From NCBI GenBank assembly GCA_028707085.1, contig JAQTUW010000005.1, positions 1 through 64,000 on the forward strand: DNA of 64,000 nt. The letters are read 5' to 3'. Of the stretch, positions 5,282 to 19,983 are shown one piece after another. The DNA comes from Methylococcales bacterium. Its GTDB lineage: Bacteria > Pseudomonadota > Gammaproteobacteria > Methylococcales > Methylomonadaceae. Each line of letters opens with the position of its first letter. Position 1 is the stretch's first letter. The position numbers were made by a program, and so were the translations under genes. The notes beneath the pieces were generated by a model, which worked only from the letters and a program-made list of their open reading frames with translations, did not search any database and had not been told where the DNA came from.

Positions 5282-5848
5282 ATGATCCAGGAAACACTCA
5301 TTACCACGGTTAACTCGCAAGGCAAACCGCATATCGCCCCAATGGGGGTACACATTATCGACGACCAGTTTGTGATCATGGCCTTCCGCCCTAATCTGAC
5401 GCTGAACAACATCCTGGAAACCCGTACCGCGGTAGTTAATTATTGCGACGACGTACGGATTTTCGCCGGCTGCCTGACCGGACGCCGGGACTGGCCCTTG
5501 CAGGCGGCCGAAAAAATTAAAGGCTACTTTCTAGCGGATACCCTGGCCCACGCCGAACTGGAGCTGATCAATCTTGCGGACGACCCGGTGCGGCCGAAAC
5601 TGTTCTGCAAACCGGTGCACAGCGTCAACCACAAACCGTTTCAGGGTTTTAACCGGGCTCAGTATTCGGTGCTGGAAGCGGCGATTTTAATCAGCCGTCT
5701 AGGCCGGCTGCCCTGGGATAAAATTGAATCCGAACTGGATTATCTACGCATCGGCATGCAGAAAACCGCCGGCCCGAGAGAGAAACTGGCCTGGCAATGG
5801 TTAATGGAATTCATCGAGCAACATAAAAACACCGGAGGCAATTCATGA
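5282..5848 (+). CDS. DUF447-family protein, probable C1-cofactor biosynthesis
   Basis: A 188-residue protein of the DUF447 type, a flavin-reductase-like beta-barrel family found in methanogens and in methylotroph tetrahydromethanopterin/methylofuran gene clusters. The N-terminal ETLITTVNSQGKPHIAPMGV and the NYCDDVRIFAGCLTG segment are characteristic. Its last bases overlap the mfnB start, which ties it to furan-cofactor synthesis. The precise reaction is not established to my knowledge. The ATG at 5282 has no strong Shine-Dalgarno element, and the preceding 214 bp contain no other recognisable gene. Confidence 0.75.
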   Translation: MIQETLITTVNSQGKPHIAPMGVHIIDDQFVIMAFRPNLTLNNILETRTAVVNYCDDVRIFAGCLTGRRDWPLQAAEKIKGYFLADTLAHAELELINLADDPVRPKLFCKPVHSVNHKPFQGFNRAQYSVLEAAILISRLGRLPWDKIESELDYLRIGMQKTAGPREKLAWQWLMEFIEQHKNTGGNS

Positions 5849-6528
5849 GTCTGATGCTGGCCAGCGTGAATAGTCTGACCGAAGCCCGGCTGGCGCGGGA
5901 CTGCGGGGTGGACATCATCGACCTCAAGCAACCGGCCGCAGGCGCGCTGGGCGCGCTGGACGTATCCGAGGTCGCAGCCATCGTCGCCGGCCTGCCTGCC
6001 GATGCCCGTATCAGCGCCACTGTCGGCGACCTGCCGATGCAACGGGCAATAGTGGTTCAAGCCACGGCGGACATGGCCGCCACCGGCGTGGATTATGTGA
6101 AGATCGGCTTTTTCCCCGGCGGCGAGCCGCTGGATTGCCTGGCCGGCCTGACCGGAATTGCTGCACAAGGTCACGCGCTAATCGCGGTATTGTTCGCCGA
6201 CACCCGCCCCAATCCGGCGCTGATAGACGCCATCGCCGCAGCCGGCTTCCGCGGCGTGATGCTGGACACCCTGGATAAAAGCCTGGGCAGCCTGACGCAG
6301 TTGCTAAGTCTGAATGAACTGGCGACGTTCGTGACCAGCGCCAAAAGCCACAGCCTGCTGACCGGTCTGGCCGGTTCGCTGGCGGCAAAAGACATCCCCG
6401 CCCTGCTGACGCTTGAGGCCGATTACTTGGGCTTCCGGGGGGCGTTGTGTACGGGCAGCCGGCGCACGGCGGCGGTGGATGAGGAGCGGATTAGGGCTAT
6501 TTGTAGTAGTTTGCGGGCAGTTTGCTAA
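5845..6528 (+). CDS. mfnB: MfnB-like (5-formylfuran-3-yl)methyl phosphate synthase
   Basis: A 227-residue protein of the DUF556/UPF0264 family. In methanogens MfnB condenses two glyceraldehyde-3-phosphate molecules to the furan precursor of methanofuran, and methylotrophs use homologues for methylofuran. Family features are the N-terminal LASVNSLTEARLARDCGVDI followed by IDLKQPAAGALGA, the YVKIGFF strand and the GLAGSLAAKD segment of a TIM-barrel fold. It overlaps the DUF447 gene by ATGA. The pair is one of the best indications that the organism oxidises formaldehyde through H4MPT/methylofuran-dependent reactions. Confidence 0.85.
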   Translation: MSLMLASVNSLTEARLARDCGVDIIDLKQPAAGALGALDVSEVAAIVAGLPADARISATVGDLPMQRAIVVQATADMAATGVDYVKIGFFPGGEPLDCLAGLTGIAAQGHALIAVLFADTRPNPALIDAIAAAGFRGVMLDTLDKSLGSLTQLLSLNELATFVTSAKSHSLLTGLAGSLAAKDIPALLTLEADYLGFRGALCTGSRRTAAVDEERIRAICSSLRAVC

Positions 6529-7165: not shown

Positions 7166-8158
7166 TCAGACCTGGTGTCTGGAACTGAGGTTTTTGATAA
7201 TTTCTTCCAGCGGCACCAGATTGAGCTTGATTCTGAACAGGATGGTCTTGTCCCCCATCATGCCGTAACACTCGTAGGTGCGCAGCATGATACTGGTGTT
7301 GTTCAGGGTGTTTTCCTTTGATTCTGGCAGTTGTCTGACCAGAATATGCAGTTTGTCGTTATTTTTGATGCGGGCCAGCAACTGGCGGTCGATGGATATG
7401 TCGTGCGAGGTGTACACCATGGGGTTGCGCTTAAAATCGTGATTTTCCATCTGGGCTTTTTCCAGCAGGGCTCCAGAAGTCAGGCTACAGGGGAACACTT
7501 CCGGATAATGGGCTATGTGCAGCAGTTCGTCAAAATAATCCGATTGTTCCGCCAGCGAACCGGACAGAAAGTTTTTGACATTGCCGTTGTGCATCCATTT
7601 GCGTTTCAGGAAAAAATCCGTGCCTGGCACCATGGTTTTGTCGGCCAGTTCATTGAGATCCGGCAGACTGCTGAAATCGGTATGGGCCAGAAACAGCGGG
7701 GTTTTGGTCTCTTTCTTGTAGCCCAGCAATATGGTCTTGCCTTGCGACTTGATGGCTATGCGGTTGGTGAGCGTCAGTTCCGGAATGGTGGTTATCAGGG
7801 TTTTTTTGATGTTCAGCGTCATTTCCTGGCGCGGACGCAGGGCGTTGACGAAGGTGATCTGGTAGTTGCTGAAACGCAACTGGTTTTCGGCAATGATCTG
7901 ATCCTCGTGCTGGGCTTCCCGATATAGCCGCATCTGGTATTCGATGAGGGTGTTAAGCTGAAAGCCCAGCACGATTGGACCTTTGAAGGGATTATGGGTG
8001 ATCTGTAGCCACTTGTGTTTGTCGTGGAACAGGTTGAAATCGTCGGAGGCGTTACGAGCGACCTCGATGTGTATCTGATCGAAAACAAAGGATTGATCTG
8101 TCATGCGTTTAAGGTTGGCGAATTTCCGGTTGGCTTGAATGCAGACGGGAATAGTCAT
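7166..8158 (-). CDS. MaoC-like hotdog-fold protein, function unknown
   Basis: A 330-residue cytoplasmic protein. Residues about 37-70 (SDDFNLFHDKHKW ... GPIVLGFQLNTLIEYQ) resemble the hydratase motif D-x-N-x-x-H-x-D of MaoC/R-specific enoyl-CoA hydratases, followed by the usual F-x-N-ALRPRQEMTL strand. The length would allow two hotdog halves, but the second half is less clear. Substrate is unknown; an acyl-CoA or acyl-ACP thioester is an inference. An internal ATG at 8104 (MTDQSFVF) is an equally good start and would shorten it by 18 residues. It lies just downstream of the giant repeat gene on the same strand, with a hairpin between. Confidence 0.55.
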   Translation of the reverse strand: MTIPVCIQANRKFANLKRMTDQSFVFDQIHIEVARNASDDFNLFHDKHKWLQITHNPFKGPIVLGFQLNTLIEYQMRLYREAQHEDQIIAENQLRFSNYQITFVNALRPRQEMTLNIKKTLITTIPELTLTNRIAIKSQGKTILLGYKKETKTPLFLAHTDFSSLPDLNELADKTMVPGTDFFLKRKWMHNGNVKNFLSGSLAEQSDYFDELLHIAHYPEVFPCSLTSGALLEKAQMENHDFKRNPMVYTSHDISIDRQLLARIKNNDKLHILVRQLPESKENTLNNTSIMLRTYECYGMMGDKTILFRIKLNLVPLEEIIKNLSSRHQV

Positions 8159-8229: not shown

Positions 8230-8266
8230 ACAGTCTTTCCGGCAGATGCGCCGCCGAAAAGACTGT
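8230..8266 (-). terminator. Hairpin downstream of the giant repeat gene
   Basis: ACAGTCTTT (8230-8238) pairs perfectly with AAAGACTGT (8258-8266). An inner CGGC/GCCG stem extends the helix across one mismatch. It lies 24 bp past the stop codon of the 2902-residue gene and before the next gene on the same strand. No clear U-run follows on the minus strand, so it may act as a 3' stabilising hairpin or a weak terminator. Confidence 0.5.
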
Positions 8267-8289: not shown

Positions 8290-11200
8290 TCAGGCTACAG
8301 TGATCAGACCCAGGCTGTCATGTACGCCAACGACACTGACGGCGGCGACAGCCGCCGTGGTAGCCAGACCGCTAACCGTCACCGATTGGTTGCTGATGGC
8401 GGCGCCGCTATCGCTGTCCCAGCCGGCCGCGGCGTTCAGCTCGTAGGCCGCGCCCGTGCTCGATGTAGTACCGTTGGCGTTGACGAAGCTGTTGACCAGG
8501 GTTTTGTCTGCACCGCTCAGGGTCAGAGTAAAACCGTCGGCGGAGAGCTTGCTGACCTTGTCGCTGCCGGTAAAGACATAGCTGCCGACGCCGTCGGTCA
8601 GGCTGAAGTCTTTGACGTTAATGCCGCCGGCTGAGCCATGATTATCCAGAGCAGCGCCGGCAACCGTGAATACGCCGGTTTTGGCGTCGTAGCTAACGGT
8701 CGAGATAGTTGGCGCGACGACATTGCCGACGCTAATGGCCTGGGTTTTGATGGCGGATGCGCCGGTATCCCAGCCGGCTGCGGCGGACAGATTATAAGCT
8801 GTGCCGTCATTAGCCTGGGTTCCGTCATGGTTGAGCAGGCCGTCTATCGCCAGTTGATCCTTGGCGGAAAGCAGGATGCTGACGCTGCCGCTACTCGGCG
8901 TGCCGGTGACGGCGCTGCCGTGGCTGAGGGTATAGGCCGCACCGCCGTCACCTTTGATCGTAAAGTCGGCAACCTTATAACCGGCAGTGAGGCTGGTCAG
9001 GTTGGCGCCGGTCAGTGTCAGTACGCCGGTCGTGGCGTCGTAGGCGCTACCGGTCAGTATCGGCTTCAGATTGAAGACACTAACCGTTTGCGTGGCGATT
9101 GCGCTGCCGCTGTCGCTATCCCAGTTGGCGGCGACCGCCAGATTATAGGCCGTACCATTGATAGAGCTGCCGCCGTTGGCGTCCAGATGACTATTCAGCG
9201 CAACTTGGTCGGCATGATTCAGGGTAATGATAAAGCTGTTCGCCGTCATCTTGCCTACAGCGTCCTTGCCGCCGAAAGTCAGACCGCCATTCACCCCGCT
9301 GAGGGTAAAGTTGCTGAGAACGACGCCATTGGCCGAACCATGCCGGGTAAAGTCCGCGCCGATGACGGTAAGCACCCCGGTAGCGGCATTGTAACTGACG
9401 GCGCTGATGGTCGGCGCAACAACAGTGCTGGCGGTAATAGCCTGAGTTTTAATGCCGGCCGCCCCGGCATCCCAACCGGCGGCGGCGGACAGATTATAGG
9501 TCGTGCCGTCATTGGCCTTGACACCGTCATGGTTGAGCAGGCCGTTGACCGCCAGTTGATCGCGGGCCGACAGGTCGATGCTGACGCTAGTGGAACCCGA
9601 GATGCTGACGACATGGCTGGAGCCGGTCAGTCTGTATTTTGCTCCGCCATCGCCCTGTAGTGTAAAGCTGCCGACATTGTAGCCGCCGGCTTTGGCGGTT
9701 AAAAATTCGCCGCTCAGGGTCAGCACACCTGTGGCGGCGTTATAGCTGGCCGCCGACAGAAAGGGCTTGCCGTGATTGACGATGACAGATTGAGAACTGA
9801 TCGCCAGACCGTTACCGCTATCCCAGCCGGCGGCAGCCGTCAGATTATAGGCTGTGCCGCTGCCGGAACTGACCCCGTTGGCGTTAAAATCGGCAAGAAT
9901 GGCGGCTTTATCGGTACTGTTCAGCGTAACGGTGAAGTGGGTGGAGCTGAGTTTGCCCAGCGTATCGAGGCTGCTAAAATTAAAACTGCCAAGATTGCTG
10001 CCGACAGAAAGATTGCTCAGATTGATGCCGTTATTGCCGCCGGAATTGACCAGATGAGCGCCGATGAAAGTGAAAACGCCGCTGGCGGCATTGTAAACCA
10101 CCTTGCTGATGGCCGGGGTGATGACATTGGTGACCGTGATGCTCTGGACGCCGAATGCGCTGGCGCCTTTATCCCAGCCGCTGACCGCCGAAAGATTGTA
10201 GAGCGAACTAACGTTGTCATTGGCGGTATTGCCCTGTTTGTCCAGCAAACCGTCCACTGCAAGCTGATCGGCTGCCGACAGGTGGATGGTCACGCTGTTC
10301 GAGCCCTGTCTTGCGCTGACAACGCTGCCTTTGGTCAGTGTATAGCCGATGCCATTGTAGCCGGTAATGGTCAGATCGGGAATTTTGTAGCCGCCGGTCA
10401 GGTAATTTCCGGTCAGGGTCAGTTTGCCGGTAGTGTAATTATAACTGGCCGTATCCACATTGGGCTGAACATTGCTGACAATCACCGTCTGGGCGCCGAT
10501 GGCCGCGCCGCTATCGCTATCCCAGCTTGCGGTGGCGCTAAGATTGTAGGCGGGGCCTTTCAGGGGCGAAATGCCGTTGGCTGTCACGAACAGATCCAGT
10601 TTTTCTTTGTCGGCGATCCCCAGATTCAAATTGAAGCCGGTGGCGGTCAGGTTGCTGACGGTGTCGCCGACGGCGTTCAGGGTAATGCTACCGATCTGTT
10701 TTTTACTGATCAGTCCGCCAGTGATGGTGAGGTCGCCAATTGCGATGCCGTTGCTGGCGCCGTGATTGGTCAGGTTTTCACCGCTGACGCTGAGTACCCC
10801 GGTGGTAGCGTTGTAGCTGACCGCCGAAATGGTTGGCGCAGTGACATTGCTGACGGTAATCGCTTCGCCGCTTATCGCGGCCCCGGCTGTGTCCCATCCG
10901 CTGCTGGCGGAAAGACTGTAGCCCGTTCCATCAATGGCCATAGCGCCATTACTGTTGAGCAGCCCATTGACAGCCACCTGATCGGCGGCGGAAAGCTGAA
11001 TGCTGACGCTACTGCTGGTCGCCGTGCCGGACAGACTGCCGCCGGTCAAAGTGTAGGCAGCTCCGCCATCGCCTTTTAGAGTGAAATCGCCGATATTATA
11101 GTCGGATGCCGTAGCGGTCAGATTATGGCCGCTCAATGTTAGTACGCCGCTTTTGGCGTCGTACGCCACGCCAGTCAGGGTAGGCGGTACGCCATTCACC

Positions 11201-14200
11201 GAGACGGCGTTACTGGTAAATGCCGAACCGCTATTGCTGTCCCAGTTTGCGCCGGCGCTAAAATTATACGCCGCGCCAGCGAGGCTGCTGCTGCCGTTGG
11301 CGTCAACGAAGGCGTTAACCGTAGCCCTGTCTGCGCTGTTTAGCGTGATGGTAAACGCAGATGCGCTCAGATTGCCGACAGTGTCGTTGGCAGCGCTGAA
11401 CGCATAGCTGCCGCTACCTGCGCTCAGGGTAAAATCCCCCAGCGCGATGCCGTTATTGCCGCCATGATTGGTGAAATTGCCGCCGGTGACTGTGAATACG
11501 CCAGTCGCCGCATCGTAGTTGACATTAGCAATACTGGGGGCTGTGACATTGCTGACGCTGACGGCGTCGGTCGCCACTGCCGCCGCAGCGGCAGTATCCC
11601 AACCCGCGGCCGCAGACAAATTGTAAACCGAAACCCCGTCATTGGCTGTTGTGCCGGACTTGTTGAGCAAGCCGTCCACCGCCAGTTGATCGGCGGCGGA
11701 AAGCTGGATGCTAAAACCGGCGCTGGTGGGCGTACCGCTGATGACGCTGCCGCCGGTCAGGGTATACATGACGCCGCCATCGCCTTTCAGGCTGATATCG
11801 GTGACTGTGTAGTCGCTAGCAGCGGTGGTCATATTGGCGCCGCTCAGGGTCAGGACGCCGGTGGCGGCGTTGTAGGCGCTGCCTGTCAGCACCGGTGTCA
11901 GGCCGCTGACCACGACTGCCTGAGTGCTAATGGCGTTGCCGCTGCCGCTATCCCAGTTCGCGGCGGCGGTCAGATTGTAGGCCGAGCCATTAATGCCAAG
12001 ACTACCATTGGCGTCCAGAATGCCATTGACCGCTGCCCGGTCGGCGCTGTTCAGGGTAACGGTAAAGCCGTTTGCCGTTAGATTGCCCACAGTATCGTTA
12101 GTGGTGCTGAAATTGTATGTAGCCCCCTTGTCGCCGCTAACGCCGAACTGCTGCAGGGCAATGCCGTTGCCGCCGCCGGCGTTGACCAGATGGCTGCCGC
12201 TAAAGGTGAATACTCCACTCGCCGCATCATAACTGACGCCGGTGATAGCCGGTGCGACCACATTGCTGACGCTGACGGCTTCGGTCGTCACCGCCCCGGC
12301 GGCGGTATCCCAGCCGGCGGCCGCCGACAGATTGTAAACCGAAACCCCGTCGTTGGCCGTTGTGCCGGACTTGTTGAGCAAGCCGTCCACCGCCAGTTGA
12401 TCGGCGGCGGAAAGCTGGATGCTAAAACCGACGCTGGTGGGCGTACCGCTGATGACGCTGCCGCCGGTCAGGGTATACATAACGCCGCCCTCGCCAGTCA
12501 GGCTGAAGTCGGCGCCCGAGTAATCGCTAGCCGCAGTGGTGAAATTGGTTCCGCTCAGAGTCAGGATGCCAGTGGCGGCGTTGTAGGCCACGGCGCCCAG
12601 GGTAGGCGTATTGACACCGCTGACGGTAACGGCCTGAGTATTGATGGCCGCGCCGCTATCGCTATCCCAGTTTGCACTGGCGCTGAAGTTATAGGCTGCG
12701 CCGCCGAGCGTGGTGTTGCCGTTGGCGTCGACATTGGCGTTGACAAGCGCTTTGTCCGCGCTGCTTAAAGTGATGGTAAAACCCGATGCAGTCAGATTGC
12801 TGACGATGTCGTTGCCGGTGCTGAACGCATAGTTGCCGCTGCCTGCGCTCAGAGTGAAATCCGCCAGCGCGATGCCATTACTGCCGCCATGATTGGTGAA
12901 ATTGCCGCCGGTGACTGTGAATGCGCCGGTCGCCGCATCGTAGCTGACGCTGGAAATGCTGGGCGCTGTGACATTGCTGACATTGAATGTTTCGCCGGTA
13001 ATGGCGCTAGCGGCGGCTGTATCCCAGCCGGCGGGAGCGGACAAATTGTAAACCGTCCCGTCGTTGGCCATGTAGCCGGTTTTGTTGAGCAATCCATCCA
13101 GCGCCAGTTGATCGGCGGCGGACAACTGAATGGTCAGGCTGGCGCCGGTTGGCGTACCGGTAATGACGCTACCGTTGTTCAGGGTGTATGTGGTACCGCC
13201 ATCGCCTTTAAAGGTGAAATCGGTAAGCGAGTAATCGGCAGCCAAAGCGGTGAAATTACTGCCGCTCAGCGTCATTACGCCGGTTGCTTCGTCGTAAGCT
13301 ACCCCGGTCAGCGAAGGCGATACGCCGCTGACGGTAACGGCTTGGGTAGCGATGGCCGCGCCGCTATCGCTATCCCAGTTTGCACTAGCGCTGAAGTTAT
13401 AGGCTGCGCCGCCGAGCGTGGTGTTGCCGTTGGCGTCGACATTGGCGTTGACAAGCGCTTTGTCCGCGCTACTTAAGGTAATGGTAAAACCCGATGTAGT
13501 CAGATTGCTGACGATGTCGTTGCCTGTGCTGAAAGTATAGCCGCCGCCGCTACCGTCGGAAGCCGTAAAATTCGCCACCGCGATACCGTTACTGCCGCCA
13601 TGATTGGTGAAATTGCTGCCGGTGACTGTGAATACGCCGGTCGCCGCATCGTAACCGACGCTGGAAATGCTGGGTGCGGCGACATTGCTGACGCTGATAG
13701 CCTGGGTAGTCACTGTGCCGGCGCCGGTATCCCAGCCCGCGGTTGCCGACAGATTGTAAACCGAAAGACCATCGTTGGCCATTGTGCCTGATTTGTTGAG
13801 CAGGCCGTCTACAGCCAGTTGATCGGCGGCGGAAAGCTGAATGCTAAAACCCGTGTTGGTGGGCGCGCCACTAATGACGCTGCCGCCGGTGAGGGTATAG
13901 CTGACGCCGCCATCGCCTGTCAGGCTGAAGTCCGTGACTGAGTAATCGCCCGCCGCAGTGGTGAGATTGGTTCCGCTCAGGGTCAGGACGCCGGTTTGGG
14001 CGTTATAGCCGACGGAAGTAATTGCAGGCGTGGAAGGCGTGCTCAGATTGATCAGCGTACCACCAAAACCATCGCTAGCGGTCGTAAAAGTATCGCCCGC
14101 ATAATTACCGACCACATCCAAGGTCAGGGAGCCGGTTCGGGTGCCTATGGTCAGCACGCCACCGCTCCATGACGCGGAAGAGACGGATCCGACACTCGTC

Positions 14201-16998
14201 AAATCAATGCTGTCGCCGGTATTGAAGCCCAGAATGCTGCCGGCAAAACTTTTCGGAATATCCAAAAGCAGATTGCCAGCACCCGAACCGAACGTCACCG
14301 ACACGCCTGAATTAACGGCCGTATCAAATTCGACTATGCCGCCGTTACCGATCAACGCCCCATCGGCTATGCCGCCGCTATTGACGGTTAGCCAGCCGCC
14401 GCTCTCGACCGTAGCGCCGCTGGCTACGCCACCGTTGGAAATGAATTCCAATCCGCCGTTCAGCGTGGAACCACTGTCTATCCCGCCACTGAAAATATTC
14501 AGCGTGCCGCCGCTTTCCACCGTGGCGGCGCTAACGACGCCGCCGGAAATATTTTCCGTGCCGCCGTTCTGGACGATGGAGCCATTGGCGCTGCCGGCGA
14601 AAACGGTCAGTGTACCGCCACTTTCGATGGTAGTCGCGCCGGCCAGGCCACCGGAGATATATTCGTTGCCGCCATTTTGTATGGTAGAGCCGCTATCGGT
14701 TCCCGCACTGAAAACAGTCAACGTACCGCCGCTGCCGATCATGGCGGCGCTGCCTGCGCCGCCGGAGATATTTTCGCTGCCGCCGGCATTGATAATGGAG
14801 CCGCTTTCGACGCCGCCGGCATAGACATTCGCCATGCCGCCGCTGTTGATTGTAATGCCGTTGTCAGTACCTGAGTTGTCTTCAGTACCACTGCCGCCCA
14901 AAATCACGCCGCTGGCTACGCCGCCCAAATCTATTTTTACCTGTCCGCCGCTATCGGTCAGGCCGGAAACGGTCAGTGAAGCTCCTGAACCGATTTCCAG
15001 CACATGCGCTGCGCCGCCAAATACCGTGCCGTTGAGGACAAACCCGCCGGAAGTCGCATTGATTGAACCGCTGGTCAGGATCAACCCGCCGAGATTGTTG
15101 CCGCTTTCCGTCACAGTGCCGGTCAGTTCGCCGCCGCTGAGCAACGTCAAGTTTGCGCCGCTTTCAAAATTGACCCCACTAACGACGCCGCCGCTGGAGA
15201 TCACCAGCGTACCGCCGCTGACTATCGTGCTATTGCTATCGACGCCGCCATTTAATACGGTCAGCGTGGCGCCACTTTCGACAGTCGCGCCATTGACTGC
15301 GCCGCCGGAGACGTTTTCGCTGCCGCCACCATTGATAATGACGCCGCTATCGACGCCGCCGCTATAGACGTTTTCGACGCCGCCGCTGTTGATGGTGGTG
15401 GCGTTGGCCGCACCGTAAAGATTTTCGACGCCGCCGCTGCCCAGCGTGACGCCGCTAGCTATGCCGCCCAAATCTATTTTAAAAGTCAGGCCGGTATCGG
15501 TAAGACCTGAAGCCGAGGCCCCGGAGCCGATTTCCAGCACGTTTGCAGGGCCGCCCAGCACGGTACCGTTGATAACAAAGCCGCCGGAAGTTGCGCTGAT
15601 CGAACCGCTGGTCAGGATCAGTCCACCGACATTGCCGCCGCTTTCCGTCACGGCGCCAATCAGTTCGCCGCCGCTGAGCAGGGTCAGATGCGCGCCGCTG
15701 TCCAGAATCAGGCCAGAAACGATACCGCCGCTGGAAATGATCAGCGTACCGCCGCTGGCGACAGTGGTGCCGTTATCGACACCGCCGTTCTGCACCGTTA
15801 GCGTGCCGCCGTTTTCGACCGTGCCGCCATTGACCGTACCGCCTGAAAAGATATATTCGTTGCCGCCGCTATTGATGACGGAACCGTTTTCGACGCCGCC
15901 GCTATAGACGTTTTCGACGCCGCCGCTATTGATGGTGGTGACGTTGGCGCCGCCATAGAGGTTTTCGATGCCGCCGCTATTAAGCACGGCGCCGCTTGCC
16001 GTGCCGCCGAAATCGACCTTCAAGGTTTCCCCGTTGTCGGTAAACCCGGAAATTGATGCCCCGGAGCCTACTTCCAGTCCGATCATGGCCCCGCTTTGCA
16101 CGCTGATGCCGTCTATTACCTGCGTGCCGGCGCCAAAAGTCAGCGAACCACTGCTTAAAACCAGACCAGTCACAATACCGCCGCTCTGGACTGTGCCGCC
16201 CGATAACTGGCCGCCGGCGTTCAGCGTCAGCGAACCGCCGCTCAAAACCGTGACATTGCCGGCGGTGCCGCTAACCTGCTCGCCGCCGCCGCTGCTGACG
16301 ATAGCATTACTGGTGACGCCGCCGCTTTGCACGGTTTCCAGTCCGCCGCTTAGCACGACGGTATTAACCGCTTGTCCGCCGCTCGAGATTATCTGCTGGC
16401 CGCCACTCTGGATTTGGGTACCGGTCACGCTACCGCTGTCGATCAAAGTGCCGCCGCTCAATATCGCGCCGCTACCGGTACCGCCTCTTTGAACCAGTTC
16501 GACGCCACCGCCGCCAATAGTGTCATTGTTGGAGAATCCGCCGCTTTGCACCACTTCGTTGCCGCCGCTTTGCACAGTGGTGGCGCTATCGTGACCGCCA
16601 CTGAAAACGACTTCGAAACCTGCGGAAAGCACCGTGGTGCTCACCACTGTGCCATAATCGTATAAATTGCCGCCACTGACCGTGACGCCGCTGGCCTCAC
16701 CGGAGGTCACCAGCAGCACGCCTTTATTTTCGATCAGCGTGCTAAAGACAGCGCCGCCTACAACTCCCTGAAAACCGCCATTGACCGTCGCACCGCTTGC
16801 CACACCGCCAGTCTCCACATCCTGACTGCCGCCGGCATTGATGGTGGCGCTTATCGAGGTTCCATAGACATCATCCGTTCCACCGCTCATGACTAAAGTA
16901 TTGATGGAGGAGCCGCCGTTCTGAATATTCTCCAGACTGCCGCTGCTGACGACAACACCGCTGCTGGATGTACCGCTGGATATGGTTATTGTACTCAT
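8290..16998 (-). CDS. Giant repeat protein (2902 aa), strand-loop-strand target of the adjacent heptosyltransferase
   Basis: A probable surface or secreted adhesin. Residues 1 to about 895 are short Gly/Ser-rich strand-loop-strand repeats (SGGxENVYSGG type, the AIDA/TIGR04415 kind), including three copies of a ~179-residue super-repeat marked by EIGSGAS. A linker domain at about 905-985 (GNLLLDIPKSFAG, TGDSIDLTSVG) follows. From residue 990 come sixteen ~118-residue units alternating A (YNAATGVLTLSG, QLSAADQLAVDGLLN, GWDT) and B (YDAATGVFTVTG, NHGGSNGIA, NWDSDSGAAI). I see no cysteine, no signal peptide, no C-terminal beta-barrel and no RTX repeats. AGGAG precedes the ATG. The heptosyltransferase gene ends 40 bp upstream, so both are probably co-transcribed and the N-terminal repeats are the likely glycosylation sites. 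Confidence 0.85.
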   Translation of the reverse strand: MSTITISSGTSSSGVVVSSGSLENIQNGGSSINTLVMSGGTDDVYGTSISATINAGGSQDVETGGVASGATVNGGFQGVVGGAVFSTLIENKGVLLVTSGEASGVTVSGGNLYDYGTVVSTTVLSAGFEVVFSGGHDSATTVQSGGNEVVQSGGFSNNDTIGGGGVELVQRGGTGSGAILSGGTLIDSGSVTGTQIQSGGQQIISSGGQAVNTVVLSGGLETVQSGGVTSNAIVSSGGGEQVSGTAGNVTVLSGGSLTLNAGGQLSGGTVQSGGIVTGLVLSSGSLTFGAGTQVIDGISVQSGAMIGLEVGSGASISGFTDNGETLKVDFGGTASGAVLNSGGIENLYGGANVTTINSGGVENVYSGGVENGSVINSGGNEYIFSGGTVNGGTVENGGTLTVQNGGVDNGTTVASGGTLIISSGGIVSGLILDSGAHLTLLSGGELIGAVTESGGNVGGLILTSGSISATSGGFVINGTVLGGPANVLEIGSGASASGLTDTGLTFKIDLGGIASGVTLGSGGVENLYGAANATTINSGGVENVYSGGVDSGVIINGGGSENVSGGAVNGATVESGATLTVLNGGVDSNSTIVSGGTLVISSGGVVSGVNFESGANLTLLSGGELTGTVTESGNNLGGLILTSGSINATSGGFVLNGTVFGGAAHVLEIGSGASLTVSGLTDSGGQVKIDLGGVASGVILGGSGTEDNSGTDNGITINSGGMANVYAGGVESGSIINAGGSENISGGAGSAAMIGSGGTLTVFSAGTDSGSTIQNGGNEYISGGLAGATTIESGGTLTVFAGSANGSIVQNGGTENISGGVVSAATVESGGTLNIFSGGIDSGSTLNGGLEFISNGGVASGATVESGGWLTVNSGGIADGALIGNGGIVEFDTAVNSGVSVTFGSGAGNLLLDIPKSFAGSILGFNTGDSIDLTSVGSVSSASWSGGVLTIGTRTGSLTLDVVGNYAGDTFTTASDGFGGTLINLSTPSTPAITSVGYNAQTGVLTLSGTNLTTAAGDYSVTDFSLTGDGGVSYTLTGGSVISGAPTNTGFSIQLSAADQLAVDGLLNKSGTMANDGLSVYNLSATAGWDTGAGTVTTQAISVSNVAAPSISSVGYDAATGVFTVTGSNFTNHGGSNGIAVANFTASDGSGGGYTFSTGNDIVSNLTTSGFTITLSSADKALVNANVDANGNTTLGGAAYNFSASANWDSDSGAAIATQAVTVSGVSPSLTGVAYDEATGVMTLSGSNFTALAADYSLTDFTFKGDGGTTYTLNNGSVITGTPTGASLTIQLSAADQLALDGLLNKTGYMANDGTVYNLSAPAGWDTAAASAITGETFNVSNVTAPSISSVSYDAATGAFTVTGGNFTNHGGSNGIALADFTLSAGSGNYAFSTGNDIVSNLTASGFTITLSSADKALVNANVDANGNTTLGGAAYNFSASANWDSDSGAAINTQAVTVSGVNTPTLGAVAYNAATGILTLSGTNFTTAASDYSGADFSLTGEGGVMYTLTGGSVISGTPTSVGFSIQLSAADQLAVDGLLNKSGTTANDGVSVYNLSAAAGWDTAAGAVTTEAVSVSNVVAPAITGVSYDAASGVFTFSGSHLVNAGGGNGIALQQFGVSGDKGATYNFSTTNDTVGNLTANGFTVTLNSADRAAVNGILDANGSLGINGSAYNLTAAANWDSGSGNAISTQAVVVSGLTPVLTGSAYNAATGVLTLSGANMTTAASDYTVTDISLKGDGGVMYTLTGGSVISGTPTSAGFSIQLSAADQLAVDGLLNKSGTTANDGVSVYNLSAAAGWDTAAAAAVATDAVSVSNVTAPSIANVNYDAATGVFTVTGGNFTNHGGNNGIALGDFTLSAGSGSYAFSAANDTVGNLSASAFTITLNSADRATVNAFVDANGSSSLAGAAYNFSAGANWDSNSGSAFTSNAVSVNGVPPTLTGVAYDAKSGVLTLSGHNLTATASDYNIGDFTLKGDGGAAYTLTGGSLSGTATSSSVSIQLSAADQVAVNGLLNSNGAMAIDGTGYSLSASSGWDTAGAAISGEAITVSNVTAPTISAVSYNATTGVLSVSGENLTNHGASNGIAIGDLTITGGLISKKQIGSITLNAVGDTVSNLTATGFNLNLGIADKEKLDLFVTANGISPLKGPAYNLSATASWDSDSGAAIGAQTVIVSNVQPNVDTASYNYTTGKLTLTGNYLTGGYKIPDLTITGYNGIGYTLTKGSVVSARQGSNSVTIHLSAADQLAVDGLLDKQGNTANDNVSSLYNLSAVSGWDKGASAFGVQSITVTNVITPAISKVVYNAASGVFTFIGAHLVNSGGNNGINLSNLSVGSNLGSFNFSSLDTLGKLSSTHFTVTLNSTDKAAILADFNANGVSSGSGTAYNLTAAAGWDSGNGLAISSQSVIVNHGKPFLSAASYNAATGVLTLSGEFLTAKAGGYNVGSFTLQGDGGAKYRLTGSSHVVSISGSTSVSIDLSARDQLAVNGLLNHDGVKANDGTTYNLSAAAGWDAGAAGIKTQAITASTVVAPTISAVSYNAATGVLTVIGADFTRHGSANGVVLSNFTLSGVNGGLTFGGKDAVGKMTANSFIITLNHADQVALNSHLDANGGSSINGTAYNLAVAANWDSDSGSAIATQTVSVFNLKPILTGSAYDATTGVLTLTGANLTSLTAGYKVADFTIKGDGGAAYTLSHGSAVTGTPSSGSVSILLSAKDQLAIDGLLNHDGTQANDGTAYNLSAAAGWDTGASAIKTQAISVGNVVAPTISTVSYDAKTGVFTVAGAALDNHGSAGGINVKDFSLTDGVGSYVFTGSDKVSKLSADGFTLTLSGADKTLVNSFVNANGTTSSTGAAYELNAAAGWDSDSGAAISNQSVTVSGLATTAAVAAVSVVGVHDSLGLITVA
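8373..14031 (-). repeat. Eight A-B dyads (about 711 bp each) encoding sixteen ~118-aa units
   Basis: The coding repeat of the giant gene. Identical landmarks recur exactly 711 bp apart: the CAGTTGATCGGCGGCGGA block at 11683 and 12394, and the long block around 12660 and 13371. Each period encodes one A unit plus one B unit. Neighbouring dyads in the 11.6-13.8 kb part are nearly identical at DNA level, while dyads near the 3' end (8.4-10.8 kb) have diverged more. This gradient suggests recent expansion or gene conversion in the middle and upstream part. Confidence 0.8.
14990..16090 (-). repeat. Three ~179-aa super-repeats within the strand-loop-strand region
   Basis: The landmark encoding EIGSGAS/EVGSGAS recurs at about 14991, 15528 and 16068, that is at 537 and 540 bp. 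Each copy is followed by a TD-G segment, an [DI]LGG-ASG segment and an ENLYG-AN-TTINSGG-type block. These longer units are built from the 19-20 residue strand-loop-strand repeats and indicate block duplication during growth of the passenger region. Confidence 0.7.
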
Positions 16999-17038
16999 GA
17001 GTTGTACTCCTGTAATTTTTTATAAATGCAGATGGCTG

Positions 17039-18559
17039 CTAATTATTAACTTGGGATTCAACGAATCCCGGAATTCTTTTGATCACTGCCTTGACCGCTT
17101 CCGCAGTAATCAGCCGCGTACATTCAAACTGCCGCGGGGTATTTTTATGTCTTGGACACCAGAGGAAATCCTTGTGGTCAAAACGTAGCCGCACATCGTT
17201 CCAGCAACTATTGCAAGCATGGTAATTGATGACTCTATAAGGTGTATCGAATTCGGTAGTGGGGTGGCTGAAGCCGCTGATCAGCACCACGGGCGAATCC
17301 ATAGCCCAGGCCAACCAGGACAGGCCGCTGCCCAGGCCAATGAAAAAGTCGGCATGCTTCAGCCAGCGCGCCCTTTCCAGCAATGGCCGGTCGCCGGTCT
17401 GGTCTTCGGCGCCGTAAGGGATATGGTTCCAGACCAGATCCATGCCGTATACCGGTTTCTGGTCTATGCATATCACCCGGTAACCCTGGGCCTTGAGATA
17501 GCTGACGATCTCCCGCCAGCCGTAAGGGTTGTTCCAGTATTTGCATTGCGTGGTGCTTTGGGTGGCTATGCAGACATAGCGTTCCGCCAGCGGTCGGCTG
17601 TCATCCGCCAACCGGATGCGCGGCGGGATTTCCGCGGGATCCACGCCCAGAATATAACCGGCGGTGCGGTGCAGGCCGACCAGCCTGAAATCGCAGGGCT
17701 GATTGACGCCCGCCTCATCGTCAAAGAACAGCCCGATGCGATAGGTGGCGTAGAAGCGATCCGCCTGCACCTGTTCGTGACTGATGAAATCGATTTCCGG
17801 GTAAGCATCGCGAAATAGCGGTATCAGCCGTTCGGCCATCGCACAGCTCATGCGGCAACCGTGCACGCCCTGAAAGCGGGCGGCATAGGGAAACCAGCCT
17901 ACCGTGTCGCCCAGCGTGCCAACCGGCAACTGCACCAGAATATCCTGATCCGCAGCCGAATAGTCATGCGTGAATACCGGCTCGTCCTCCGCCCAGACCT
18001 CGATCCGGAAACGGATAAAATAACGTTTTGAAGAATTGATGCGGCCGCCGACAATCCGCGTTTCATAGACGATATTGCCGGTATCGAGATCGGAAAGCCT
18101 GACCCGCCAGTTGCCTTCCGGCAAAGCGAGCCGACAACCATCGTTAAAGTCGTAACGAATGCCCATGGGGCCGGTGCGGGTCGGCAAATCGGCGGCAGCC
18201 TGAAAATTCTGTTTTTTACCGTTATCCGCCGCAGTTACCGAAGCCGCAGGCCCGCTTTCTGCATCCGGAGGGTTTACGCCGGGTTCGACAGGGTTTTCGT
18301 CACCGACCGGTTCCGGATGTTCAGCAGACGGCGGGGTTGCCAACTGTATAGCCTTGTCATTCGTCATCTGCATTGGATTGTGTTCGGTAATCGCGGATAT
18401 AAACATATTCCAGGCCGACCCCGGAAATTGGTCAGCATGAATATTTTTGGACAATCGAGACAGGACGGCTTCCTGTTCCGCTGACAACACTCGTCTGCCA
18501 ATAGCGTGATATGACTGGATAATGAAAATTACATCTTGCGCAAGATGTAATTTTTCCAC
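17039..18559 (-). CDS. TibC/Aah (BAHT)-family autotransporter heptosyltransferase
   Basis: The family O-glycosylates strand-loop-strand repeats with heptose from ADP-heptose. A beta-strand N-terminal domain (LPEGNWRVRLSDLDTGNIVY, YFIRFRIEVWAEDEP) is followed by VGTLGDTVGWFPYAARFQ and a GT-B catalytic part (YVCIATQSTTQCKYWNN, FIGLGSGLSWLAWA). The C-terminal C-x2-C-x15-C-x11-C (HACNSCWNDV ... WCPRHK ... FEC) matches the iron-binding cysteine set of TibC, whose first three spacings are x2 and x15. At 506 residues it is longer than TibC (about 400), with a Pro/Ala-rich linker around residues 60-110. The nominal start is GTG at 18559, but this lies inside a promoter/palindrome, so the true start may be downstream. 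It is the first gene of the pair with the giant protein. Confidence 0.88.
   Translation of the reverse strand: MEKLHLAQDVIFIIQSYHAIGRRVLSAEQEAVLSRLSKNIHADQFPGSAWNMFISAITEHNPMQMTNDKAIQLATPPSAEHPEPVGDENPVEPGVNPPDAESGPAASVTAADNGKKQNFQAAADLPTRTGPMGIRYDFNDGCRLALPEGNWRVRLSDLDTGNIVYETRIVGGRINSSKRYFIRFRIEVWAEDEPVFTHDYSAADQDILVQLPVGTLGDTVGWFPYAARFQGVHGCRMSCAMAERLIPLFRDAYPEIDFISHEQVQADRFYATYRIGLFFDDEAGVNQPCDFRLVGLHRTAGYILGVDPAEIPPRIRLADDSRPLAERYVCIATQSTTQCKYWNNPYGWREIVSYLKAQGYRVICIDQKPVYGMDLVWNHIPYGAEDQTGDRPLLERARWLKHADFFIGLGSGLSWLAWAMDSPVVLISGFSHPTTEFDTPYRVINYHACNSCWNDVRLRFDHKDFLWCPRHKNTPRQFECTRLITAEAVKAVIKRIPGFVESQVNN
18525..18554. promoter_or_regulatory. Perfect 30-bp palindrome at the heptosyltransferase promoter
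   Basis: AAAATTACATCTTGC (18525-18539) is followed immediately by its exact reverse complement (18540-18554). The palindrome begins where transcription from the adjacent minus-strand promoter would start. It could be a repressor operator, or form a 15-bp 5' stem in the mRNA. Under the nominal GTG start it would be codons 2 to 12 of the glycosyltransferase. Confidence 0.75.
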
Positions 18560-18588
18560 ACATTACTAGCTAGATATTCACTTGTCAA
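18560..18588 (-). promoter_or_regulatory. Sigma-70-like promoter of the heptosyltransferase operon
   Basis: On the minus strand TTGACA (18588-18583) and TAATGT (18565-18560) are separated by exactly 17 bp. The predicted start of transcription falls near 18553, at the edge of the 30-bp palindrome. The nominal GTG start codon at 18559 would then lie upstream of the transcript start. Confidence 0.6.
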
Positions 18589-18679: not shown

Positions 18680-19228
18680 CTAGAACAGACCGAGTTGAAC
18701 CTGGGCGACTTCCGACATCATTTCCCGCGACCAGGGCGGATCAAGGACTACTTCGACATTGACCGAACTAACGCCCGGCAACGCGCGGATGCATTTTTCC
18801 ACATCGCCCTGAATGACCGGCCCCATGCCGCAACCGGGGGCGGTGAGGGTCATTTCGACGCCTACATCGTTGCCGCCCTGCGGATTGGGCGTGGCGCTGC
18901 AGCGATAAACCAGGCCCAGATCGACTATATTGACCGGAATTTCCGGATCGTACACGGTTTTCATGACTTCCCAGCAGTTTTTTTCGACAGCCTGACTGTC
19001 GGTTTCTTCGACCAGGGTATGCAACTGGTGCGACTCCATGTCCAGCGCATCGGCGTCGGCCCCGGCTATGCGCACCATGTGTCCATAATCGGTAATCACC
19101 GTATAGTTGTTTCCCAGCGCCTGATGCAGGGTGACTGACTGGCCTTTGTGCAGAATACCCTGCTCGCCATCGGGAATGGTGACGATATTGACATCTCTTT
19201 TTAACACTATAATTTCTTTATCCGCCAT
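18680..19228 (-). CDS. sufT: SufT, Fe-S cluster assembly/maintenance protein (MIP18/DUF59 family)
   Basis: A 182-residue SufT protein. The N-terminal KEIIVLKRDVNIVTIPDGEQ is a family-specific domain. The C-terminal half is the DUF59 fold with DPEIPVNIVDLGLVYR and the conserved TLTAPGCGMGPVI segment, which contains the Cys implicated in cluster handling. SufT assists maturation of Fe-S proteins. ATG at 19228 is preferred because GAGAG lies 4-8 bases upstream; a TTG at 19240 is the alternative. The yciK stop overlaps this ribosome-binding region, so translation is likely coupled. It sits with ubiG-mupP-yciK rather than in a suf operon. Confidence 0.92.
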   Translation of the reverse strand: MADKEIIVLKRDVNIVTIPDGEQGILHKGQSVTLHQALGNNYTVITDYGHMVRIAGADADALDMESHQLHTLVEETDSQAVEKNCWEVMKTVYDPEIPVNIVDLGLVYRCSATPNPQGGNDVGVEMTLTAPGCGMGPVIQGDVEKCIRALPGVSSVNVEVVLDPPWSREMMSEVAQVQLGLF

Positions 19229-19236
19229 AACATCTC

Positions 19237-19983
19237 TCAAGGTTTAAACGTCTGGGCATCTATCGTTTGTCCGGTCACGCCGATACTGGCGGAGCCGAAC
19301 AGATAGCAATACAAGGCATCCAGGCTGTTCATGGCCGGCAGGCCGGCCTTGTCTTCCGCCGGATAGGCCTTTTTGCGCAAGGGTGAGTCTATCGGACCGG
19401 GCATCAGGATGTTGACCCGAATTTTCCGGCCGGCTTCCAGTTCCTCAGCCAGGATTCTGGCAAAACCTTCCAGGGCGATTTTGGATACCCCATAGGCGCC
19501 GGCATAAGCTGGGGCCTTGCGCGCCGCCGAGTCGGTGGTGAAGACGATGGCGGCCTGCGCGCTGTTCTGTAGCACGGGCAGCAATACCCTGCTCAGTAGA
19601 AATGCGGCGTTGAGATTGACATTCAGGGTGTGCCCCCAATCACGGGTATTGTGGCTGGCGATAGGGGTGTAGGCGCTAAACTCGACAGCCGAGTGCAACA
19701 ATCCCTGCAACGAACCGTAACGCTGGCGAATGGCGTCCGCCATCTCCTGATATTGTTCTTCGCTGGCGCCCGCCAGATCGAAAGGATAGAGCATGGGCTC
19801 CGGGCCGCCGCCGGCGACGATGGCGTCGTAGGTTTTTTCCAGCCTGGGGATGCTTTTATCCAGCAGGATGATGTGAGCCCCCTGCCGGGCCAGAGCCAGC
19901 GCGGCTGTGGCTCCAAGCCCGCCGCCGGCGCCGGTGATGAGTATGACCTGTTTGCTTAATGGCATAGTGCTAATTGTATCCAT
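19237..19983 (-). CDS. yciK: YciK-family short-chain dehydrogenase/reductase
   Basis: A 248-residue SDR enzyme. The Rossmann glycine motif ITGAGGGLGA follows LSKQV, and the catalytic Ser and Y-x3-K appear in TTDSAARKAPAYAGAYGVSK. The chain ends in the family-typical SASIGVTGQTIDAQ. Substrate is unknown. It follows mupP with a 28-bp overlap and precedes sufT. The ubiG-mupP-yciK order is conserved in pseudomonads and other gammaproteobacteria, supporting the YciK assignment over a generic SDR. A second in-frame ATG at 19965 (MPLSKQ) is possible. Confidence 0.85.
   Translation of the reverse strand: MDTISTMPLSKQVILITGAGGGLGATAALALARQGAHIILLDKSIPRLEKTYDAIVAGGGPEPMLYPFDLAGASEEQYQEMADAIRQRYGSLQGLLHSAVEFSAYTPIASHNTRDWGHTLNVNLNAAFLLSRVLLPVLQNSAQAAIVFTTDSAARKAPAYAGAYGVSKIALEGFARILAEELEAGRKIRVNILMPGPIDSPLRKKAYPAEDKAGLPAMNSLDALYCYLFGSASIGVTGQTIDAQTFKP

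Follow-up and report, generated by a model that had tools for sequence, protein, structure and literature searches.

A TibC/Aah-type heptosyltransferase beside a giant strand-loop-strand protein in a methanotroph: a gene pair with a probable link to type I secretion

The closest described systems are TibC-TibA of enterotoxigenic E. coli and Aah-AIDA-I, in which an O-heptosyltransferase is encoded upstream of its substrate, a protein of the strand-loop-strand (SLS) family that is exported through Sec and bears a C-terminal barrel. A related gene pair is present in a 64,000-nucleotide stretch of DNA (the window), positions 1 to 64,000 of contig JAQTUW010000005.1 in the Methylococcales bacterium assembly GCA_028707085.1. 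Its TibC/Aah-type O-heptosyltransferase (BAHT) is homologous to the E. coli enzymes over its whole length from the N-terminal beta-barrel domain onwards, shares their iron-finger cysteines and the Asp110 position of TibC, and is likewise encoded upstream of an SLS protein. Unlike TibA and AIDA-I, this protein is a giant of 2902 residues with 16 additional repeats of two alternating types (A/B) that lacks a barrel and shows no signal peptide to the eye, and its exporter is most likely a type I system. A second point of comparison is provided by the serralysin and RTX proteins exported by PrtDEF, whose C-terminal module recurs in most SLS proteins related to the giant; unlike them, the giant itself has neither RTX repeats nor that module.

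The enzyme gene (17039..18559, minus strand; 506 residues from a GTG codon) precedes the giant's gene (8290..16998, minus strand), and the distance from the enzyme's stop codon to the giant's ATG is exactly 40 bases. This gap (16999..17038, minus strand) holds a Shine-Dalgarno sequence, AGGAG (17011-17007), and no minus-strand terminator-like site was found in it. Against TIGR04414, for which the curated equivalog cut-off is 200 bits, the enzyme scored 655.5 bits (E 2.1e-197). It also matched the TibC N-terminal domain (PF21129, TibC_1st, 102.9 bits) and Glyco_transf_9 (PF01075), and its residues 119-497 aligned with TibC as crystallised in PDB entries 4rap and 4rb4 (E 3.9e-145). Residues Cys449, Cys452, Cys468 and Cys480 (codons within 17120..17215, minus strand) form the pattern C-x2-C-x15-C-x11-C, with the same spacing as Cys339/342/358/370 of TibC, given as its iron-finger cysteines in PMC4358343. 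Asp218 (17906..17908, minus strand) aligns with TibC residue 110, which is Ala in the 4rb4 sequence; according to the same paper, the ligand complex of TibC was made with D110A (PMC4358343). All five residues are invariant among 16 aligned enzymes. Judged by its sequence, the enzyme is a member of the TibC/Aah heptosyltransferase family, with a predicted catalytic activity. The GTG start at 18559 is doubted because seven close relatives begin far 3' of it, and the true start is probably Met63 (18373) or Met65 (18367) of the annotated frame. A promoter scan returned 2 sites, no excess over shuffled sequence (mean 1.6).

The giant has a predicted mass of 280 kDa, a pI of 4.05 and no cysteine. 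SLS repeats of the AIDA/TIGR04415 type start right at its N-terminus and occupy residues 1-890 (14329..16998, minus strand). TIGR04415 matched in 17 stretches with 195.9 bits, over its curated cut-off, and the matches listed for the gene all lie within 14341-16968 (residues 11-886); PF16168 matched with 64.6 bits (cut-off 27), and crystal sequences of TibA and of Ag43/AidA-I type matched inside residues 146-457. A cap-like segment follows (residues about 886-989; 14032..14343, minus strand), which in phmmer comparisons was weakly similar to SLS proteins of Bradyrhizobium (L047, L052, L056, L063 and L065; 26-36 bits) and scored 130 bits against L169. Repeat analysis of residues 990-2880 (8359..14031, minus strand) resolved 16 units of 116-124 residues (~118), alternating between A and B, which matched neither Pfam nor NCBIfam at E 1e-3. 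The last unit carries a short hydrophobic tail (residues 2878-2902; 8293..8367, minus strand) that ends in VSVVGVHDSLGLITVA. Among 237 genomes of the same bacterial family, 18 contain A/B units, which occur also in proteins without an SLS match, such as a 1808-residue protein (L191) of the same genome, so the SLS and A/B regions are separate modules.

These results bear out the core of the initial annotation, which had placed an enzyme with the TibC-type cysteine cluster 40 bp upstream of a gene whose first ~900 residues are SLS repeats: the TIGR04414 score, the PDB matches and the cysteine spacing agree with the first part, the intergenic distance is as given, and the matches of both SLS models favour the second; given the match to TibC, a fold outside the BAHT family is unlikely for the enzyme. 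Its further statement that the substrate is far larger than the known ones holds against the smaller E. coli proteins TibA and AIDA-I but not in general, as SLS open reading frames (ORFs) of 3875 residues in the same genus (L163) and over 3260 residues in Bradyrhizobium exist.

Enzyme and SLS repeats also occur together across the family. TIGR04414 was matched at E <= 1e-20 in 16 of the 237 genomes, which fall into two kinds, seven with enzymes above 650 bits and nine with enzymes of 113-327 bits. TIGR04415 repeats were found in six genomes, all among the seven with the high-scoring enzyme, the seventh being 80% complete, and in none of the other 230, including the nine with the low-scoring enzyme (Fisher test for 6/7 vs 0/230, 3e-11, across related and thus not independent genomes). 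In the same-genus genome G117, one enzyme is followed after 23 bases by a 2351-residue protein with SLS and A/B repeats, and a second such protein, in a 2661-codon frame, lies upstream of a second enzyme. These two giants (L028 and L029) are about 90% identical over 1587 aligned positions and, as each has a separate enzyme next to it, the pair as a whole is duplicated; L028 additionally contains NHL repeats between its A/B repeats and its C-terminal module. In genome G136, SLS repeats were matched in at least seven frames and TIGR04414 once at E <= 1e-20, and no SLS match was found in the ORFs from ~8 kb upstream to 10 kb downstream of that enzyme.

The low-scoring enzymes are distant relatives (about 35% identical) in genomes without a TIGR04415 match. 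Eight of their nine loci were read, that of G093, with a partial enzyme, standing outside the set. Seven of the eight enzymes have as neighbour a small Sec-type protein that bears a (TSG)n-like tract (L035 10117-10818(-), L036 5860-6810(+), L037 7739-8602(+), L038 11312-12193(-), L040 11104-11901(-), L041 9105-9827(+) and L042 11027-11998(-)), while the small Sec-type neighbour of the eighth (L039 9992-10411(-)) has a serine-rich tract. The (TSG)n proteins are a possible second kind of substrate, for these distant enzymes.

The genome to which the window belongs (3.0 Mb in 73 contigs, 99.89% complete) contains a PF02461 AMO/PmoA gene (425.7 bits), and the nearest named relatives of its enzyme, among the best 80 of 564 stretches described below, are from metagenome-assembled genomes of Methylococcaceae/Methylococcales. 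On these two grounds the host is regarded as a methanotroph, in agreement with the initial assignment of the pair to a methylotroph. The genome also encodes an HldE homologue. Only one enzyme in it exceeds the TIGR04414 cut-off, yet another contig encodes a second SLS protein, of 1229 residues (L043 6273-9962(+), contig C57). This protein combines a HELTHAMGR motif near its N-terminus, presumably metalloprotease-like, with SLS repeats, A/B repeats and a type I module, and is probably modified by the same enzyme. With two SLS proteins and one enzyme, the earlier description of the pair as dedicated is too strong.

As regards export, the autotransporter barrel PF03797 was found neither in the giant nor elsewhere in its genome at E 1e-3, with a positive E. 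coli control. Contig C14 encodes, in a row, a PrtD (exporter family TIGR01842, 758.6 bits), an HlyD (389.3 bits) and a TolC, these being the sole PrtD and the sole HlyD of the genome over the cut-off. The N-terminus of the giant, MSTITISSGTSSSG, shows no signal peptide by eye and is unlike the long charged and hydrophobic leaders with which four barrel-type SLS proteins of Burkholderiaceae start. Eighteen sibling SLS ORFs with closed C-termini were compared (L028, L029, L031, L034, L043, L163, L165, L166, L167, L168, L169, L201, L202, L203, L204, L205, L206 and L207, leaving out a 104-residue closed SLS fragment in L206; L201, with an open N-terminus, and L164, with an open C-terminus, both at contig ends in G136, may be one gene). 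Fifteen of them end in a serralysin-like module, YLYYNxxxGGLYYDANG...EIAxIGxxxHPxxLxxxDFxLI, with 73-158 bits against a profile built from ten of the 15, the remaining five (L029, which repeats L028, and four others) being scored from outside. L034 additionally carries RTX repeats (PF00353) and the serralysin C-terminal domain M10_C (PF08548). Because of the module and these L034 domains, the majority of the siblings resemble type I substrates. A stretch of about 15 kb in G117 contains the second enzyme, its SLS and A/B protein and the only PrtD match of that genome at E <= 1e-100.

Outside the family, named genomes were scanned for relatives of the enzyme, which gave 564 encoding stretches, and the best 80 of these were read (four of these, L044, L045, L048 and L051, are probably the same genomes as G068, G058, G073 and G075). 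An SLS ORF was present in 61 of the 80 loci, in 56 of them at a distance of up to 500 bases from the enzyme, counting overlapping frames. Eighteen SLS ORFs have an open C-terminus and stand outside the barrel scan. The 43 closed ones comprise 24 that end in F, W or Y, 23 of which carry PF03797, and 19 others, none with PF03797, five with Hint_2 and one with RTX. A HlyB/PrtD-like gene together with an HlyD gene flanks the enzyme in 18 of the 56 named loci that lack an F/W/Y-ending SLS protein and in none of the 24 that have one (Fisher test, 9e-4, for loci that are not independent).

The 18 type I-linked loci are from Bradyrhizobium, Reyranella, Enhydrobacter, Xanthobacteraceae and uncultured Rhodospirillales; the SLS ORF is closed and lacks a barrel in seven of them and is open in five, and six have no SLS ORF in the stretch examined. 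Like the window, they have an enzyme of the same clade (see below), SLS ORFs that lack a barrel wherever they are present and closed and, in some, the cap-like segment; unlike the window, they have the exporter near the enzyme, and their SLS C-termini differ from that of the giant, e.g. in QPHA-type ends. In the loci so scanned, NCBIfam models confirmed HlyB in L056 and L049, PrtD in L119, and HlyD in L056 and L119. The exporter genes lie upstream on the same strand in most Bradyrhizobium loci, and beyond the SLS gene, on its far side, in Reyranella L049, L050 and L074. L046 has enzyme, ABC (HlyB/PrtD-like) and HlyD genes in a row, and Bradyrhizobium sp. BTAi1 (L119) has the order PrtD-HlyD-enzyme. 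Three Bradyrhizobium loci (L117, L119 and L102) share the row ABC-HlyD-enzyme; the enzyme ORFs of L117 and L119 are 711-712 residues long, with a C-terminal extension. In L119 and L102 the enzyme is followed by proteins starting MANNTFNPTALANGTSNLL, with no SLS ORF found there, and these proteins are perhaps a third kind of substrate.

An enzyme tree with a midpoint root was constructed from 89 rows, namely the window, the 80 named loci and eight of 15 other enzymes of the family; TibC and Aah stand outside it. The 23 barrel-labelled rows fall in one clade of 25 (support 100/96), L103, without a barrel label, being assumed to be the one F/W/Y-ending protein that lacks PF03797. The window and all 18 type I-linked loci fall in a clade of 43 (99/92) that contains no barrel-labelled row. 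With the root drawn at the midpoint, L046 is sister to the nine methanotroph rows (99/95).

The explanation we favour, with a probability of roughly two in three for the whole, is cytosolic heptosylation followed by type I secretion. The two-gene unit would produce a cytosolic TibC-type O-heptosyltransferase and a giant SLS substrate, whose SLS region would be heptosylated before export. Export of the giant would then involve neither Sec nor an autotransporter barrel but, most likely, the PrtD-HlyD-TolC system of its own genome. At the cell surface or beyond it, the protein would form a long glycosylated stalk with the 16 A/B domains after it and serve as an adhesin or as a biofilm or matrix protein. 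The second SLS protein, encoded elsewhere, would probably be modified by the same enzyme. Slightly less firmly, the evidence tips towards a wider proposition, in which the whole clade of "autotransporter" heptosyltransferases that includes the window's is dedicated to type I secretion of SLS giants, enzyme phylogeny tracks the export route, and one methanotroph enzyme serves several giants; these would be heptosylated in the cytosol and pass as glycosylated chains through a HlyB/PrtD-HlyD-TolC channel.

Several observations weigh against this explanation, the weakest step of which is the export of the giant itself. The giant lacks the serralysin-like module (5.9 bits), its genome's exporter is on another contig, and three siblings, all of G136, also lack the module (L202, 0.7 bits; L203, -0.4 bits; L204, 10.5 bits, with the last part of the motif retained). 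The giant's VSVVGVHDSLGLITVA resembles the tail of L202, DIALVGVHALSLA, and those of L161, a protein encoded beside the exporter of the giant's genome, and L196, a likeness seen by eye. N-terminal hydropathy was 1.27-1.63 in four barrel proteins, 0.32-1.59 in non-barrel proteins and 0.98 in the giant; this measure did not separate the groups, and the absence of a signal peptide therefore rests on reading by eye. Among the named loci, those with barrels are nearly all from Burkholderiaceae and those linked to type I genes mostly from Bradyrhizobium and Reyranella, so the two sets are not independent. The 56 loci without an F/W/Y-ending SLS protein include two from Burkholderiaceae (L083 and L106) without a closed SLS C-terminus, and 38 of the 56 have no type I pair in the flanks examined, some contigs being short. 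Finally, TibC is reported to bind a beta-helix whereas type I substrates pass unfolded, and heptosylation and type I export may for this reason conflict.

A frameshift that removed the module from the giant was also considered; the three frames past its stop codon, read by eye, showed no remnant. Directly 3' of that stop lies a hairpin of 16 pairs without a T-tract (8230..8266, minus strand), z being -4.16 for the whole 101-base stretch that holds it. A search for a terminator with a T-tail after the giant gave none.

Of the alternatives, the one that survives best, though we consider it unlikely, is that the giant is heptosylated but has a degraded or lost export signal, being a former type I substrate that is now cytosolic or poorly exported and whose role has passed to the C57 protein. 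This would account for the missing module, present in 15 of the 18 closed siblings and kept in the C57 protein; set against it are an intact frame of 2902 codons, the strong hairpin past its stop and the enzyme gene 40 bases upstream. Since the module is also missing from the three G136 SLS proteins, one with the L202 tail resembling the giant's, and from the A/B proteins without SLS repeats L193 and L196, a second type of tail is as plausible as decay. Less probable still is a version with real type I export in which the sugar is other than heptose or the enzyme acts mainly on the A/B region or on another protein. The assignment is at family level, and the distant enzymes adjoin (TSG)n rather than SLS proteins; the 655-bit equivalog match, the invariant key residues and the close co-occurrence with SLS repeats over 237 genomes argue otherwise. 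A strict counterpart of TibC-TibA, with the giant an autotransporter or otherwise displayed by a type V route after heptosylation, is very improbable in spite of the shared enzyme and repeat families and the barrels of 23 of 24 F/W/Y-ending SLS proteins, given a genome without PF03797 (which largely refutes this reading, a two-partner pore not having been searched for), a giant without a leader like those of the four Burkholderiaceae proteins and an enzyme outside the barrel clade.

Upstream of the enzyme, and on its strand, lies a SufT-like gene (18680-19240, minus strand; TIGR03406, 230 bits) that has no evident link to the pair, although the enzyme's family is one that binds iron. On the other side, a 330-residue ORF (7166-8158, minus strand) has no Pfam or NCBIfam match, and at 5282-6528 (plus strand) a DUF447 gene adjoins a 4HFCP_synth gene (PF04476), a combination that presumably fits one-carbon metabolism.

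Cytosolic heptosylation with type I secretion, as favoured here, alters part of what was first proposed for the locus. What stands is that a methanotroph encodes a TibC-type enzyme next to an SLS protein, and the size claim stands in part; a dedicated pair, an undescribed system and an autotransporter framing are unsupported or fall short. The giant is very probably no autotransporter, and the link to type I genes had gone unnoticed. The pairing of enzyme and SLS protein is already known to curated NCBIfam models and is widespread, as the 564 stretches attest; the proposed export route is the new part. No paper that connects enzymes of this family to type I secretion was recognised in a search that subscription papers mostly fell outside, so that absence from print is not established.

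BAHT enzymes have been described as modifiers of autotransporters. In PMC8151025, type V proteins are said to emerge unfolded from the Sec translocon, and recognition of partly folded targets by BAHT is considered possible. If a large clade of these enzymes feeds type I exporters, the name of the family comes into question. Heptosylated chains would then have to cross a one-step channel, which would make the order of glycosylation, folding and export a testable question. If this holds, methanotrophs and Bradyrhizobium would join the likely hosts of this type of glycosylation, and non-pathogens would offer candidate glycosylated surface proteins of very large size.

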